64,000 bases of DNA from Koleobacter methoxysyntrophicus. Its GTDB lineage: Bacteria; Bacillota; Thermosediminibacteria; Koleobacterales; Koleobacteraceae. Shown one piece after another: positions 25,780-54,117 of this stretch (position 1 is its first letter; each line of letters starts with the position of its first letter). The notes under the pieces were generated by a model that was not told the DNA's origin, made no database searches, and worked only from the letters and a program-made list of their open reading frames with translations. A program made the position numbers and the translations under genes. Location of the stretch: positions 1,657,001-1,721,000 of the forward strand of contig NZ_CP059066.1 of the NCBI RefSeq assembly GCF_017301615.1. Direction: 5' to 3'.

Positions 25780-25843
25780 AAACAGAGTGTATGTGTGCAG
25801 AAGTATAGATGATTTTATAACAAATAGAGGGAGGAAATTACTT

Positions 25844-26131
25844 ATGAAGGCGAAGATAGATTCACAATGGCTCCTTAATTATATAAAGGACCATGGCGGG
25901 ATTATAAACATCGCTACCCGTATAACTATAAGAGGGTGATGAACGGCTTTTTATGCCCCGTCTGGTCAGATGGGTAAGCCGGAAAATCAGGAGGATTTTG
26001 AGGTGTTTGAAGTAGATGGGATTTCCGTTTATATAGAAAAAGGATTATTAGAAAAAGATGGAGAACGAGTAAAGGACCTGCAGTTTTATTTAGAAGGATA
26101 CGGCAGATACAGGATATTTTTCCTTAATTAA
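25844..26131 (+). CDS. CC/Se motif family selenoprotein with Sec-Sec (TGA-TGA)
   Basis: The frame opened by ATG 25844 (GAGGGAGGAA upstream) runs in one phase to TAA 26129-26131 if two adjacent in-frame TGA codons (25937-25939 and 25940-25942) are read as selenocysteine, giving 95 residues: ...ATRITIRG-Sec-Sec-TAFYAPSG.... The downstream part keeps protein-like sequence in the same frame (FEVFEVDGISVYIEKGLLEK). The layout (short N-terminal KIDSQWLLNYIKDHGG, a CC/UU pair after a Gly, then VDGIxVYIxK) fits the small CC/Se motif family, where other members have Cys-Cys. A bacterial-type SECIS hairpin starts two bases after the second TGA. Function is unknown; a redox role for the vicinal pair is inferred. 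Ordinary gene calling would stop at codon 31 or skip the gene. Confidence 0.85.
25944..25981 (+). promoter_or_regulatory. Bacterial SECIS element
   Basis: Directly after the TGA pair: CGGCTT pairs with AAGCCG (outer stem), then CCCGTCT pairs with AGATGGG (one G-U), closed by a GGTC loop. The apical stem-loop TCT-GGTC-AGA resembles the SelB-binding loop of E. coli fdhF (CAGGUCUG). Position and loop sequence both support selenocysteine insertion. Confidence 0.82.
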
Positions 26132-26206: not shown

Positions 26207-26728
26207 TTACTTCTTTTCTGCTACGTTTTCATAAAGAGGGCATTTATAGGCATCATCCCCCATAAGGATTATTTCTGCCACGATCCTGGCTGTTTTTTCA
26301 ACGATCCCGGCACATTTCCTTGAACGCTCTTCACTGAAGAAATCGTCGAATTCCCCAACCAGCTCCCGGCAGTTAGTTGAACCGAATTCCTTTTTAAAAT
26401 AATAGGGGATCTGGTTAAAAACCCTGTAAATTCCGGGATTGCTTCTTAATTCAACTATTCCCGATGAATTTATGCTTTTTTCAGTGGAAATCCTTCCGAA
26501 TTTCATCCCTGCTGCCATTACTGCACCTATTAGTGCACCGCAGTTGTTCCCGCTGGACCCTATTCCTCCTCCGAATCCCGTAGCCATTGCGGAAACTTCA
26601 GGAGGGAAATTTTCTACCAGGCCTGACATGAGAACGGCTTTAAGAACACTTTCGGCACAGTTATGTTTAGCTCTGTGATATTCCCTGGCAAGGGATACGA
26701 CCCTTTCAACTGCCTTTTCCTTATCCAT
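26207..26728 (-). CDS. C_GCAxxG_C_C family protein
   Basis: A 173-residue cysteine-motif protein. Cysteines occur in the family spacing: HNCAESVL, then GNNCGALIGAVMAAG (the GCAxxG-type core), TNCRELVG and RKCAGIVEKTA. The family often has a redox or electron-transfer partner and is sometimes fused to membrane or flavin domains; its biochemical role is not known. It faces the selenoprotein gene across a shared terminator. Start ATG 26728 has GGGGG upstream. No signal peptide is visible. Confidence 0.8.
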   Translation of the reverse strand: MDKEKAVERVVSLAREYHRAKHNCAESVLKAVLMSGLVENFPPEVSAMATGFGGGIGSSGNNCGALIGAVMAAGMKFGRISTEKSINSSGIVELRSNPGIYRVFNQIPYYFKKEFGSTNCRELVGEFDDFFSEERSRKCAGIVEKTARIVAEIILMGDDAYKCPLYENVAEKK

Positions 26729-35300: not shown

Positions 35301-37145
35301 TCAGGCCAAACCCAGCTGGGCTAGTTTTTCTTCCCTAGGTATCCCCTCTTCGGTCCAGCCCCTTAGGCTGTAATATTCACTTAACAGGCGGCCCATATGG
35401 GGTAAGATCCCTCCGGCTGCACCGGTTTTCCTGTCATGACACATCAGCCTCGGTGGCAACATATCATCCTTTCTGCTGATACCAAGCCTTACATTGTACA
35501 TTCGCTTCAGGTTGTGGAGTCTTTCCCCTATAAGCATCAGTTCTTCTCCTGTTAGGTCCCAGCCGGTTACCGCATTTACCCATGATGTTATATCCTCGGG
35601 TTTTGTTTTGCCCCTGATGAGGAACTTGCACAGGCCTAAAGCATTAAAGGTGTTCATGAAGTTCTGCATCCTTACGGCCAGTTCGGCTTTGTTGTCATCA
35701 CTGCGTTTATCAAGCGGTTTATAAAACCCGATCAGTTCGGGAGGAAATGCACCTGATTCACAGAAATAGGTCAGCCCCTCTAAATGGCATCCGCCCCTGT
35801 TGGCTGTCGCATAGTTGGCAGCCATGCTGGTAAAAGCCCTGGGGTCATGAAAAGCAACCGACAATCCCTTTACATGAATGGCAAATTCCCCGGCAATACC
35901 GCCTATTTTTTCGGCAGCATTAACAACACCATCTGCAAAAACCTCACCTATACCTTCTCTGTAGGCAATCTTTTTTATCATTTCCAACACTGCAGGGCCG
36001 TTGCCCCATGTCAGTTCCAGACCGCCGGTATCTTGTTTTGTGATGAGGCCGTGTTCGTAGCATTCCATTGCCATAGCTATGGCATTACCCGTGCAAATTG
36101 TATCCAACCCGAACCTGTTGCACATGTCATTGGCAGCTACCAGATACTGTATATTGTCATTTAGGATGTTGGCACCAAAGGCGGCACAGGTTTCATATTC
36201 GGGGCCGTGGCCTATACTGCCGGCATAGGGCCCTACGTCTACCCTTGCATCTTTACCGCATCGTATTGAACAGCTGAAACATGCATGGTGGGATACGGTA
36301 ATACCCTGTTCTGCCATATACTGGCCACAGGTTTTTGCCGCACCTTCTGCCCAATCTCCCAGGGTCCAGTTTTTGATGGGAAGATCACCGTTTGCCTCTA
36401 CTCCCTGCACACCACCAGCTGTTCCGAAATCATACAGGCCTCTGGCGTTCTTCTGCAGCTCGGGCAGGAAGGCCTTTAACTGTTCTTTCAGTTTTTCACG
36501 GTCTTTTACCTGTGGAGATAGTTTACCCCTTGCAGCTATTGCTTTTAGGTTTTTAGAGCCCATTACTGCTCCGATACCGCCTCTGCCTGCCGCCCTGGTC
36601 TCATTCCCGCCGATCATTATCCCTGCTATCTTGTTCTGGTTCTCGCCTGCAGGACCGATGCAGGCTACTACGGCTTTTTGATCGGTCTCTGCCTTTATTG
36701 TATCTGAGGTTTCATATACGTCTTTCCCTATCAGATGCTCTGCAGGCCTTATCTCAACCTTCTCATCGGTAATCCAGAGATATACGGGCTTTTGTGATTT
36801 CCCGGTTATTATTATGCCGTCGTATCCGCATCTTTTTACCTGTTCACCCCAATGGCCTCCAACGGTTGCTTCGTTCCAGATGCCTGTTAAGGGAGACTTG
36901 GATACGAAGGAGCTCTTTGCAGCCGTTGGCACGGCAATACCCGTCAACAGCCCGTTCATGAATATTATCGGGTTTTCAGGGCTTAACGGGTCAACCCTAT
37001 GGTCGAATTCATCTATGAGTATCCGCGCTGCTACTCCGCTCCCTCCTAAATACTTCCGAAAGTATTCTTCACCTATCGGTCTCTGAGAGGTTTCCCCTGT
37101 TGTTAGATTGACTTCGAGCAATTTGCCCATGTAACCATAAGCCAT
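35301..37145 (-). CDS. Aldehyde:ferredoxin oxidoreductase family protein 1
   Basis: A 614-residue tungsten bis-pterin enzyme that oxidises aldehydes to acids with ferredoxin (or the reverse). N-terminal domain: GKLLEVNLTTGETS, KYLGGSGVAARIL, FVSKSPLTGIWNEA. The pterin-binding stretch is RAAGRGGIGAVMGSKNLKAIA. The [4Fe-4S] ligands are in HHACFSCSIRCG (CxxCxxxC), the fourth in LGLCKFL. DTICTG is also typical. No signal peptide; the enzyme is cytosolic. Start ATG 37145 follows GGGGG. Upstream, a dead IS copy ends about 50 bp before the start. Substrate unknown; candidates are aldehydes from amino-acid fermentation. Confidence 0.93.
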   Translation of the reverse strand: MAYGYMGKLLEVNLTTGETSQRPIGEEYFRKYLGGSGVAARILIDEFDHRVDPLSPENPIIFMNGLLTGIAVPTAAKSSFVSKSPLTGIWNEATVGGHWGEQVKRCGYDGIIITGKSQKPVYLWITDEKVEIRPAEHLIGKDVYETSDTIKAETDQKAVVACIGPAGENQNKIAGIMIGGNETRAAGRGGIGAVMGSKNLKAIAARGKLSPQVKDREKLKEQLKAFLPELQKNARGLYDFGTAGGVQGVEANGDLPIKNWTLGDWAEGAAKTCGQYMAEQGITVSHHACFSCSIRCGKDARVDVGPYAGSIGHGPEYETCAAFGANILNDNIQYLVAANDMCNRFGLDTICTGNAIAMAMECYEHGLITKQDTGGLELTWGNGPAVLEMIKKIAYREGIGEVFADGVVNAAEKIGGIAGEFAIHVKGLSVAFHDPRAFTSMAANYATANRGGCHLEGLTYFCESGAFPPELIGFYKPLDKRSDDNKAELAVRMQNFMNTFNALGLCKFLIRGKTKPEDITSWVNAVTGWDLTGEELMLIGERLHNLKRMYNVRLGISRKDDMLPPRLMCHDRKTGAAGGILPHMGRLLSEYYSLRGWTEEGIPREEKLAQLGLA

Positions 37146-37192
37146 TTCTAGATTAACCCCCTTTGTTTTTAGTGTTATATCATCGGATCACT

Positions 37193-37670
37193 AGTGTTGC
37201 ATAAAAATTTTCCAACAAAATAAAGTCTAAATTCTAAATTCTCTTATAACCCATAAACGTACATTTAAGGAATATATAGAAATAAGCTTTTCCTCTTACA
37301 GTTAAAGGAACAACCACCCAGGGGTAGTCCTTATTCAATTTTATTACAGAATTACAGGATCATATGTGAGAGCATTCAAATGATTAGCTTCGCCTTCCAT
37401 CACCTGCCTTTCAGTATATTTAAATACTGCTTCATGATCTATTTTTCGACAACCTCTTGAACTTCGTTTTGGCCTTCTGTGAAGTTTCTTTATAAACAAA
37501 GCAAACGGTTCAAGAAGGCATGCATTTAACAATCTTTTAATTGCCAGGAATGATCCCTTGTAGCTGGTTTTTAACTTAAGCAGTATTAATAAATGGTGGA
37601 AGCGCTCGTAACCTGCGGGATATTTGAAAGGCACTGATGGAGCCAAGCTTTATAGTTTTGCATTATTTTT
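37193..37670 (-). mobile_element. Decayed IS (IS4-like) fragment 1
   Basis: The region contains the C-terminal part of a transposase (37344 to about 37600: LKTSYKGSFLAIKRLL ... GCRKIDHEAVFKYTERQ ... ALTYDPVIL) and an end sequence GTTGCATAAAAATTTT at 37196-37211. Nearly the same DNA occurs in the second copy at 41033-41915. The catalytic part and the N-terminus are missing, so it is dead. The right boundary is approximate, set where similarity to the other copy stops. Confidence 0.7.
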
Positions 37671-38301
37671 ACCTCCAGAAATTACCCATGGATATTTTTG
37701 ATATTTCATTAGCATAAGTGAATATTTAAGATGAATAGTAAGTTATTTCATTATAACACTATATGTTGGTACTTTACTTTTTCTAAACACCCCCACACTC
37801 GAAGCGGATGGTATATTTTGCCATTATTTCTGATGAGGGGTTGATTTTGGTGATTGTTAATTTTCGTTTTTACAAAGAGTTTCAAAAATCTTTATGATAT
37901 TGAAGTGTTTTGCTTCTAAAGGCTGGTTTTTATTACATGATTCTTTGTATTTTTAAGGTCTATAGCGTTAATAAATGGATCGAAATGTTTTTGCTCTGAT
38001 GCTGCTTTAGCCTGTTTTGTCTGCATCCTATGCTATTTTGTTTTTGTGTTTTTAATAAAAACGGCGGCCGCTTGAAGTAGTGTTAGTTTTCGAAGGATGA
38101 CGTGAATGTTTAAAAAAAGAGTATAATTAAGTATGATTGTCCTTGCTTTGATACTCCTATGGGCATATGGTTTATACTAAGCTCAGATGATGTTGGCCTT
38201 TTACCAAAACCTCCAAGGGGTTCAAATAATGTTCTTAGTTAGATTTGTTAATTTTTTACTACAAATAATTTGCTGTTTCCGAAAGTACTCACTTTAACTC
38301 G
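37671..38301. other. Non-coding gap, nothing recognised
   Basis: About 630 bases of AT-rich sequence between the IS fragment and the end of the second AOR gene. I see no convincing reading frame, RNA gene or terminator; it may be eroded mobile-element DNA. Confidence 0.4.
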
Positions 38302-40173
38302 TTAATCTTTATATAGTTCGTCGATCACAAAATCTAACTTGAGGTTTTTCAATGTTTCTTTAGTTGGTGCACCAGTCTCTTTATCATAACCTCTTTTCTC
38401 GTATACTTCGTCTACAAGATTATTAAGTACGTCTTCAGAAAGATATTTTCCTTTTGACGGACCGTCGGGAATTGGTTCGTGGGTAAAGCGGTATGGTATT
38501 GTATCGTCTTTCCTGGATGCGCCTTCCCTAATGTTAAATGCTCTTTCTAATGCATAAACACGGTCGGCTACCGTAATTAAATCGTTAATTGATTTATTCA
38601 TACCGGTTACTATGTTAATCAAATCTGCATAATCCTGAGTTATACCTTCTATACCTAAAATTGACTCTGTCATCCTGCAATTAATAAAACAGTCTGCAAT
38701 AGTTGTCATTCTTTGAACATCCACTTGAAAATATCCTTTTCCCTTAATCTGGTTAATATCGACTAATCCAATACGCTCTGCAGTTGGTCTTCCGTCCTGA
38801 TGTGACCCGCCCCTGTTAGAAGTTGCATATCCTACCGCCATACCGGGAATACCACGAGCAGAATGAGCTGGAATTTCAAGCCCTTTTGCATGAATAGCGA
38901 AGCGTTCGCTGTCCTTACCTATTTCCTCTGCTAATCTTTTTACCCCCTTTACTAATTTGTCTCCTACACCCTTTCTGACCGCAGCAAGCTTAACCATTTG
39001 AAGCATAGCTGTCTTATTTCCAAACACAGGGGATGTTCCTGAAATACCTTCGAAAAATTTCTCGTTAATTAGACCTTTTTCATAACATTCCATGACAAAT
39101 GCAATAACTGTTCCTAATGAAATAGTATCAATTCCATATTCATCGCATAATCTGTCTGCTAAAATAATAGCTTCAATATCATTAACACCACAGTTAGATC
39201 CAAAAGACCAAAGAGTCTCATATTCTGGGCCAATAGTACTTGCACCAAAATACTCTTGCTTTTTAGTCTTAGTTAATTTACCACATGCAATGCTGCAACA
39301 AAAACAAGTGTCATGCTTTAAGATAAATTCTTTTGCGCTCTCAGGGCCAATTTTTACTGCATCATGGAAAAACTCAGTTTGCCAATTATTGGTACCTAGT
39401 ATACCTAAATTGTTGACAACATTAACTACACCTATTGTTCCTATACTCGGTAACCCTACACCCGTACCAGGATTGGATCTAATTTTCTCGTTAAGTTTAC
39501 GCATTAAGCCTTGAGCTTCCATAATATCAGTTACCTTAACGTCATGGGAACCTCTTAATGCGATAGCTTTTAGGTTTTTTGAACCCAGAATTGCTCCTGT
39601 GCCTCCTCGACCAGCAGCACGGACTCCAGAAATCGTACAAGAGATTAATGATTGATTCTCTCCTGAAGGTCCAATCACAGCTACTGCAATGTTTTCATCT
39701 CCAATTTCACGTTTCAATTTAATTTGAGTTTCAAACGTTTTTAAGCCCCATAGATGACTAGCATCACGCAGTTCTACCTTATCATCATCAACCCATATAT
39801 ATACTGGATTTGGCGATTTGCCACTTATTACTAGCGCATCATACCCAGCATATTTTAGTTCTGCACCAAATTGACCTCCAAAATATGAATCAATAAAAAA
39901 TCCAGTCAAGGGTGACTTAGTTATAATAGCACTTCTGCTACTTACTGCAGGCAAACCAGTACCTTGTAACGGTCCTACTGTGAATATCAAAACATTATCT
40001 GGTCCTAAAGGGTCTACTCCTGCCGGAACCATATCAAAAAGAAGTTTGGCTCCAAATCCATTCCCTCCAATGTAATCTTCTGCAAATTCTTTACATAGTT
40101 TTTCGATTTGTATTTCTTTTGTTGATAAATTTATGTATAATAGCCTACCTGCATATCCTCCATAATTAAACAT
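38302..40173 (-). CDS. Aldehyde:ferredoxin oxidoreductase family protein 2
   Basis: A 623-residue paralogue of the enzyme at 35301, clearly diverged. Motifs: GRLLYINLSTKEIQIEKL, GGNGFGAKLLFDM, IITKSPLTGFFIDSYFGGQ, RAAGRGGTGAILGSKNLKAIA for the tungstopterin, CFCCSIACGK for the [4Fe-4S] cluster, and TIADCFINCRM carrying the fourth Cys region. It is the last gene of a three-gene operon (ferredoxin, MoaD-like, AOR), with only 3 bp between it and the MoaD-like gene. The four-cluster ferredoxin is probably its electron partner. Base composition is more AT-rich than in AOR 1, which suggests separate acquisition. Confidence 0.93.
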   Translation of the reverse strand: MFNYGGYAGRLLYINLSTKEIQIEKLCKEFAEDYIGGNGFGAKLLFDMVPAGVDPLGPDNVLIFTVGPLQGTGLPAVSSRSAIITKSPLTGFFIDSYFGGQFGAELKYAGYDALVISGKSPNPVYIWVDDDKVELRDASHLWGLKTFETQIKLKREIGDENIAVAVIGPSGENQSLISCTISGVRAAGRGGTGAILGSKNLKAIALRGSHDVKVTDIMEAQGLMRKLNEKIRSNPGTGVGLPSIGTIGVVNVVNNLGILGTNNWQTEFFHDAVKIGPESAKEFILKHDTCFCCSIACGKLTKTKKQEYFGASTIGPEYETLWSFGSNCGVNDIEAIILADRLCDEYGIDTISLGTVIAFVMECYEKGLINEKFFEGISGTSPVFGNKTAMLQMVKLAAVRKGVGDKLVKGVKRLAEEIGKDSERFAIHAKGLEIPAHSARGIPGMAVGYATSNRGGSHQDGRPTAERIGLVDINQIKGKGYFQVDVQRMTTIADCFINCRMTESILGIEGITQDYADLINIVTGMNKSINDLITVADRVYALERAFNIREGASRKDDTIPYRFTHEPIPDGPSKGKYLSEDVLNNLVDEVYEKRGYDKETGAPTKETLKNLKLDFVIDELYKD

Positions 40174-40176
40174 TTT

Positions 40177-40464
40177 TTAACCTCCCGCAAAAGGCAAAAT
40201 TATGGTGATTTCGTCTCTATCACACAATTTATAATTATCAAAATTGGTGTAACGAACTATTTTATTATTTACTAATACCATATATACTTTAACTGAGTAA
40301 TCTTTTTCTTCGTGGAAAAAAACGTTACTTAAGAAATCATATCCGCTCTGTTTACTTTCAATAATTTGTTTCATCGCATCCAATATTGACGAATTAGCCT
40401 TTACTTTAAAAGATATTCCACTACTTTCTTTAATTCCTTCAGCTTTAATAGTAATATTAATCAT
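40177..40464 (-). CDS. MoaD/ThiS-like sulfur carrier, AOR cluster 2
   Basis: A 95-residue ubiquitin-like protein ending TIILPFAGG, with the C-terminal Gly-Gly needed for thiocarboxylation. It is longer than the cluster 1 protein because of an insert around FLSNVFFHEEKDYSVK. It lies between the ferredoxin and the AOR gene with 18 and 3 bp gaps, so a role in tungstopterin sulfur transfer for this AOR is likely. Confidence 0.82.
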   Translation of the reverse strand: MINITIKAEGIKESSGISFKVKANSSILDAMKQIIESKQSGYDFLSNVFFHEEKDYSVKVYMVLVNNKIVRYTNFDNYKLCDRDEITIILPFAGG

Positions 40465-40482
40465 TTAACTCATTCCTCTAAC

Positions 40483-40986
40483 TCATTCCTCGAAGGATGC
40501 TTGAAATTCTTGTAATGATAAACCGTAATTCTTTAAAAGTTTTTCTAATATTTTGTCTGGTGGCAACAATTCACCCGCCGCATACTCGCCATACTTTAAA
40601 GCATCTCGAGGACAAGCATCTACACATTTAGGATTTCCATGACATAAATCGCATTTAATTGGTATAGTTCCCTCATTATGGTCCATAAATATGGCTTGGG
40701 CCGGGCAACTATCTACACAATTTTCACATCCAATACACTTTTCCGCATTTATTATTACTGCTCCATCGGTATCTTTTTCTATCGCATTAACAGGGCAACT
40801 TTCCATACACACTGCTTCATCACAATGACGACAATATGATATAACGATTTGTTCAGGAATACCTATGCGGTATGAACGAATCCTTGATTTTTTGGGGTTA
40901 TATACTCCTGCTTTCTCTGCAGAACAGGTGAGTTCACACAATCTACAACCAATACATTTTGAATAATCTAAAAAGAGTCTTTTCAT
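40483..40986 (-). CDS. Four-cluster [4Fe-4S] ferredoxin-like electron carrier
   Basis: A 167-residue polyferredoxin of the HycB/AorB type. Cysteine groups: CIGCRLCELTC, then CRHC with CMESCP, CIGCENCVDSCP, and CDLC with CVDACP, enough for four [4Fe-4S] clusters. It is the first gene of the AOR 2 operon and probably shuttles electrons between the AOR and a further acceptor. Start ATG 40986 follows GGAGAGA. A second dead IS copy ends about 47 bp upstream of the start. Confidence 0.9.
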   Translation of the reverse strand: MKRLFLDYSKCIGCRLCELTCSAEKAGVYNPKKSRIRSYRIGIPEQIVISYCRHCDEAVCMESCPVNAIEKDTDGAVIINAEKCIGCENCVDSCPAQAIFMDHNEGTIPIKCDLCHGNPKCVDACPRDALKYGEYAAGELLPPDKILEKLLKNYGLSLQEFQASFEE

Positions 40987-53948: not shown

Positions 53949-53980
53949 GTATTCATAAAAACTAAAAGAAAAATATAGTA

Positions 53981-54117
53981 ACCTTCAGGACTGGGTGAAA
54001 TTCCCAACCGGCGGTGAACCTTTGCTGATGAAGGAAGCCCGCGAGCCCCAAAGGGGTTGATTTGGTGGAAATCCAAAGCCGACAGTTAAAGTCTGGATGG
54101 GAGAAGGTGTTGTTTTT
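53981..54117 (+). ncRNA. FMN riboswitch (RFN element)
   Basis: All conserved parts of the RFN aptamer are present: P1 5' strand CCTTCAGG, GGGTGAAATTCCC, ACCGGCGGT, AAGCCCGCGAGCC, a P5-type hairpin with GGTGGAAATCC, AAGCCGACAG, and AGTCTGGATGGGAGAAGG closing P1. FMN binding would favour the terminator that follows. It controls the RibU transporter gene. Confidence 0.97.

Follow-up and report, generated by a model that had tools for sequence, protein, structure and literature searches.

One gene of Koleobacter methoxysyntrophicus, lying within the 64,000-nucleotide stretch of DNA analyzed here (the window), very probably encodes a selenoprotein with two adjacent selenocysteine (Sec, U) residues, both of its successive in-frame UGA codons being read as Sec. 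The Sec-decoding genes of the organism, homologs in other genomes, selection on the coding sequence and a match to the CC/Se motif family all support this reading. They thereby bear out, on sequence evidence, an earlier note that had proposed a 95-residue Sec-Sec protein at this place.

Reading frame and codon usage

The frame opens with ATG at 25844, runs through 31 codons to TGA TGA, and continues for another 62 codons to TAA at 26129-26131, with the two Sec residues at positions 32 and 33. Both the read-through frame on the forward strand and the good ribosome-binding site were found as the earlier note had described them. The features of the locus are the following:

25844..26131, + strand: probable CDS of the 95-residue Sec-Sec protein, TAA included (family match, conservation, dN/dS, AlphaFold2)
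25829..25834, + strand: ribosome-binding site GGGAGG, 10-15 nt 5' of the ATG
25937..25939, + strand: UGA1, probable first Sec codon (Sec32), invariant in 22/22 loci and aligned with IscA Cys35 by hhalign
25940..25942, + strand: UGA2, probable second Sec codon (Sec33), invariant in 22/22 loci
25957..25974, + strand: conserved bacterial SECIS upper stem, 7 bp (folding, covariation, conserved place)
25964-25967, + strand: SECIS apical loop GGUC, between stem arms 25957-25963 and 25968-25974
25944..25981, + strand: additional lower helix (25944-25949 paired with 25976-25981), predicted for the window but not for most relatives

The hexamer TGATGA occurs 61 times in the window, counting both strands, and only the occurrence at 25937 falls in a long open frame, defined as one open for 25 codons before the site and 50 after it. 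A chance frame was considered and rejected. Reassignment of TGA as a sense codon in this genome would also account for the read-through seen; however, TGA terminates 10 of the 41 long open frames in the window, and many homologs of the protein themselves end in TGA. Since TGA is thus a working stop in the window and among the homologs, this explanation is refuted, and we give it practically no weight.

The 3.10-Mb genome carries the bacterial Sec-decoding trait, consisting of selA (620 bits), selB (403 bits), selD (391 bits) and tRNA-Sec (79 bits); the search for selA, selB, selC and selD that the earlier note had called for therefore recovered them all. The selB, selA and selD genes are mutually adjacent, and selD itself contains one in-frame TGA.

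The SECIS hairpin

The 54 nt that start at the TGA codons fold with -19.2 kcal/mol, as compared with a mean of -11.7 for shuffled sequences (z -2.8). Set against the bacterial SECIS model of a published census (PMC13188914), the window hairpin has a GGUC loop, a stem of 7 bp and a folding energy of -9.6 kcal/mol; its loop starts 24 nt past UGA1 and 21 nt past UGA2, and both distances lie within the published range of 16-37 nt. The two-part hairpin with a GGTC loop that had been claimed at first sight thus stands as regards hairpin and loop, while the conserved core proves to be the upper stem alone, without the lower helix.

This 7-bp stem occupies the identical place in all of the related loci with two TGA codons (UU loci, described below) except L095. 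There, the spacer and the hairpin stand 3 nt away from the usual position, and the hairpin is retained despite an altered protein motif. All seven pairs form in 19 of the 22 loci. Random synonymous codons yield seven pairs in 2.6% of trials for the window and in between 0.1% and 5% for most loci, values that are not to be multiplied across loci because the loci are related. The covariation score of the stem is 0.203 in 20 sequences, compared with 0.121 when shuffled (exceeded in 0/500) and at most 0.046 with slid partners; with just seven pairs, three of which never vary, this is moderate evidence. The loop-adjacent pair is U-A in the window and A-U in most relatives, a compensatory change, and the second of the two substitutions turns a nearly invariant Leu into Gln. 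The loops of the UU loci are mostly of the GGUY type (GGUC or GGUU), with GGGC, GGAU, GGCU and AGUU also represented. Among the one-TGA relatives listed, the distance is mostly 23 nt, and a hairpin of different sequence stands at the same place.

The stem begins 17 nt past UGA1 and 14 nt past UGA2, and it could therefore stay folded outside the ribosome during both decoding events. We infer a two-step process in which a single hairpin would recruit SelB-GTP-Sec-tRNA twice in succession.

Membership of the CC/Se family and a Sec-Sec clade

With U written as C, the window protein scores 49.2 bits against the NCBIfam model NF041239, whose curated cut-off is 40, and all of the 21 aligned UU relatives match the same model (E <= 1); the CC/Se membership suggested by the earlier note is confirmed by this score. 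A search of the class gave two kinds of gene, namely one-TGA genes, with motifs such as GGGUAGC and GGGUCGP, and two-TGA genes, with the motif HGUUNAFYAPSGLxGKPENEE. The genome of the window has one of each, the one-TGA paralog (L026) being at C1:895037-895309. Scanning genome contigs with a single sequence found no locus, whereas scanning them with the two-TGA alignment found 16, all with TGA-TGA in frame. In total, there are 22 UU loci in 21 genomes of Bacillota and Chloroflexota, and TGA-TGA is in frame in every one. They come from Thermosediminibacteria (Fervidicola, Thermovorax, Thermosediminibacter and others), Alkaliphilus, Anaerosolibacter, other Clostridia, and Chloroflexota, and the relatives are 24-55% identical to the window protein. 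No additional UU locus was found in a class-wide search of 37 genomes around G069, a plasmid search gave no match, and a Pfam search with the window protein gave no domain.

A maximum-likelihood tree built from 46 family members unites the UU proteins in a single clade with support 100/98, separate from the one-TGA CC/Se proteins with their different SECIS sequence. What had been put forward as a lone hidden gene thus keeps its reading as a selenoprotein and loses its status as a singleton, as it belongs to a deeply conserved Sec-Sec clade that spans two phyla. Neither the contig scan nor a profile search revealed a Cys form within this clade. One of the two DNA patterns of the scan spans the PSGLMG stretch, which also encodes the hairpin, so Cys forms that lack the hairpin may be under-sampled there; the profile search, which covered 399 genomes of the phylum and was independent of that pattern, returned Cys-Cys forms solely outside the UU clade.

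Relatives outside the clade have Cys-Cys, Sec-Cys, Cys-Sec or just one Sec in place of the pair, and Sec32-Sec33 align with the UC, CU, CC and UAGC forms. Cys-Cys occupies the two positions in L074, L087 and L103-L107, whose placement on the pair requires a gap of one residue that L095 needs as well. L108 has Cys-Sec there, and Sec-Cys is found in L023, L026, L033, L078, L086 and L088; at the UGA2 position, the Sec-Cys and Cys-Cys relatives have Cys. The earlier note had asked for Cys or Sec homologs at both positions, and these are at hand in four forms, Sec-Sec among them. A real Cys/Sec pair should show just such a mixture.

These data bear on the notion that one UGA alone is read as Sec and that a near-cognate or Cys insertion fills the other, so that the product would carry Sec-Cys or Sec-X. 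A single Sec is the rule elsewhere in the family, and in E. coli one UGA is recoded with an efficiency of just 30-40% (PMC4513850). However, both TGAs are invariant in 22 loci although a Cys codon (TGY) is one base away, relatives do use TGY at either position, and both codons lie inside the published SECIS spacing. We thus consider this notion improbable, and favor Sec at both positions. At the E. coli efficiency, two UGAs in a row would cost yield if decoded independently; that both are kept despite this cost suggests that both selenium atoms are needed.

Two variations within the family were also noted. In L058 (G020), the Gly before TGA-TGA is replaced by Cys, which gives Cys-Sec-Sec, three chalcogen residues in a row, and the near-identical L096 retains the Gly. 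At G003:C218, L023 and L035 are tandem one-TGA CC/Se paralogs about 500 bases apart.

Coding selection and predicted fold

In all close pairs with computable dS, dN is far lower than dS on either side of the TGAs; after the TGAs, for example, L049 and L050 differ with dN 0.12 and dS 1.03. By these sequence comparisons, selection is purifying on both sides, and the conservation downstream of the TGAs that the earlier note had made decisive is present. The full 95 residues were modeled with AlphaFold2 from a 46-row alignment, with Cys substituted for Sec, and the resulting model is one domain with pLDDT 94.2 and pTM 0.85.

If the TGAs were true stops, the locus would hold a pseudogene or else a short peptide with unrelated sequence behind it, and a standard gene caller would indeed end the protein at residue 31. 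Against this stand the same frame, motif and downstream selection in 22 loci, the conserved hairpin, and the high confidence with which both halves are predicted to fold together. The conserved homologs refute this explanation in practice, and we rate it as very improbable.

The best fold matches of the model are A-type carriers of the IscA/SufA/HesB group, a comparison to which the HesB-like selenoproteins also belong. The first six PDB matches from Foldseek are of the IscA/SufA/DsrR/HesB type, with probabilities up to 0.91 and TM 0.40-0.43, and are weak; the nearest solved folds (E. coli IscA, Aquifex AQ_1857, DsrR, SufA and HI1723) have TM 0.35-0.43 and a best E of 0.02. No Foldseek match among solved structures had E below 0.001, and a sequence search of solved structures gave no meaningful match. 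The window protein scores 17 against the IscA/HesB model NF038090, whose cut-off is 85, and 13 of 46 CC/Se family members match Pfam Fe-S_biosyn weakly. Profile alignment with hhalign against E. coli IscA places Sec32 on IscA Cys35; whereas IscA has three ligand Cys, C35 and those of a C-terminal CxC, the window protein retains the C35 position as Sec32, and the CxC is missing from the family. The model thus weakly suggests that the product is a small beta-rich domain, distantly IscA/HesB-like, with the Sec pair at the position of IscA Cys35.

Gene neighborhood and possible function

In eight Thermosediminibacteria loci, the gene order is an AOR-family gene (about 720-740 aa), the UU gene, and a [FeFe]-hydrogenase-like protein, and in six of the eight a ferredoxin precedes the AOR gene. 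At a ninth AOR locus, L095, which branches deeply among the UU proteins and shares its genome with L094, the UU gene comes after a ferredoxin and a distinct AOR (30% identical). AOR genes are frequent in these genomes, at 2-10 each. At such numbers, one would not expect chance to produce this arrangement, although the eight loci are related by descent. Four clostridial UU genes (L048, L057, L060 and L061) lie inside arsenic-resistance operons with varying sets of ArsR, ACR3, ArsD, ArsA and ArsM. Four of the six Chloroflexota loci are near an AOR or a tungsten-cofactor radical-SAM maturase (TIGR04317; L050 above and L062 below the cut-off, L053 assigned by BLAST), and some also have ArsR and a SaoE/SO_0444-like permease. 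That every copy sits in an AOR operon was considered and rejected, given the four clostridial copies in ars operons and the position of the window gene, L047, L049, L051 and L097 outside AOR operons. Near the UU genes of L047 and L061, from distant genomes, there is a DF-family-like protein (NF049942, 57-60 bits, below the cut-off of 70).

The UU gene of the window is isolated, with an asparaginase-like gene on one side and a C_GCAxxG_C_C protein on the other, outside any AOR or ars operon; two AOR genes are 10-14 kb away. The C_GCAxxG_C_C protein (TIGR01909, 78 bits; 26207-26728, - strand) is convergent with the UU gene, and its family has selenoprotein members; the window copy has no TGA. 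At about 10-14 kb from the UU gene, 35301-40986 (- strand) is a probable tungsten-enzyme cluster:

35301-37145 and 38302-40173, - strand: AOR-family genes
40177-40464, - strand: MoaD-like protein
40483-40986, - strand: 4Fe-4S ferredoxin-like protein

About 20 kb past the window end, at G000:C1:1741140-1741778, a 721-aa open frame encodes a long-type AOR, the size class that adjoins the UU gene in Thermosediminibacteria. The window also contains an FMN riboswitch (RF00050, 113 bits) at 53977-54112 (+ strand).

Because relatives adjoin tungsten AOR genes or sit in arsenic operons, we favor a metal(loid)/redox carrier with a vicinal diselenol as its site. There is about an even chance that the two neighboring Sec residues make up a diselenol/diselenide site, which would bind or hand on a soft metal(loid) or an Fe-S- or tungsten-related cargo. 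Some single-Sec relatives (the UAGT forms) have no nearby partner Cys, and a site with two ligands thus does not hold throughout the family. The weak fold matches, the missing CxC, the position of the window gene outside AOR and ars operons and the frequency of AOR genes also count against this reading. A close rival, which we consider rather less than probable, is that the Sec-Sec pair is real and serves as a pure redox couple, i.e., a reversible vicinal diselenide that passes low-potential electrons between neighboring oxidoreductases. AOR, ferredoxin and hydrogenase-like neighbors fit this role, and the UxxC, UC, CC and UU forms are all compatible with a redox pair; on the other hand, the clostridial copies are in arsenic operons without AOR, IscA-type folds are metal or Fe-S carriers, and the UAGT forms would have no resolving Cys. 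The full proposal, which we advance tentatively, is that two SelB decoding events in immediate succession, from one SECIS, would create a conserved vicinal diselenol on a scaffold like that of IscA, and that in anaerobes this site would carry soft metal(loid)s in connection with tungsten AOR enzymes and the detoxification of arsenic.

Relation to known systems

Selenoprotein L of aquatic animals resembles the window protein in having two Sec residues that can join in a diselenide, in a UxxU motif; there, the residues are two apart and the fold is different. Hardly any natural protein is known in which Sec residues are adjacent. A paper of 2020 presents an algal PDI_e with the motif GUGUU as the first case of two consecutive Sec (PMC7539508). 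That pair is consecutive as in the window protein, but it belongs to an unrelated eukaryotic protein disulfide isomerase with a eukaryotic SECIS. In the papers covered here, we found no other report of an adjacent Sec pair. Among the 119 prokaryotic selenoprotein families of a 2026 census, no Sec-Sec motif is listed, and NF041239 is entered with a single Sec (PMC13188914, Table 1). The window protein shares length, layout and Sec site with that family, which was first predicted in Moorella thermoacetica, and differs in its two in-frame TGAs, with Sec at both neighboring positions. The name 'CC/Se' suggests that its curator had a pair in mind.

In this clade, then, a bacterial ribosome very probably decodes two successive UGA codons from one hairpin, and both selenium atoms, rather than cysteine, appear to be maintained by selection across two phyla. 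A locus of such stability would offer a clean system for studying SelB processivity and vicinal-diselenol chemistry, and it may provide a lead into unexplored biochemistry of tungsten and arsenic.
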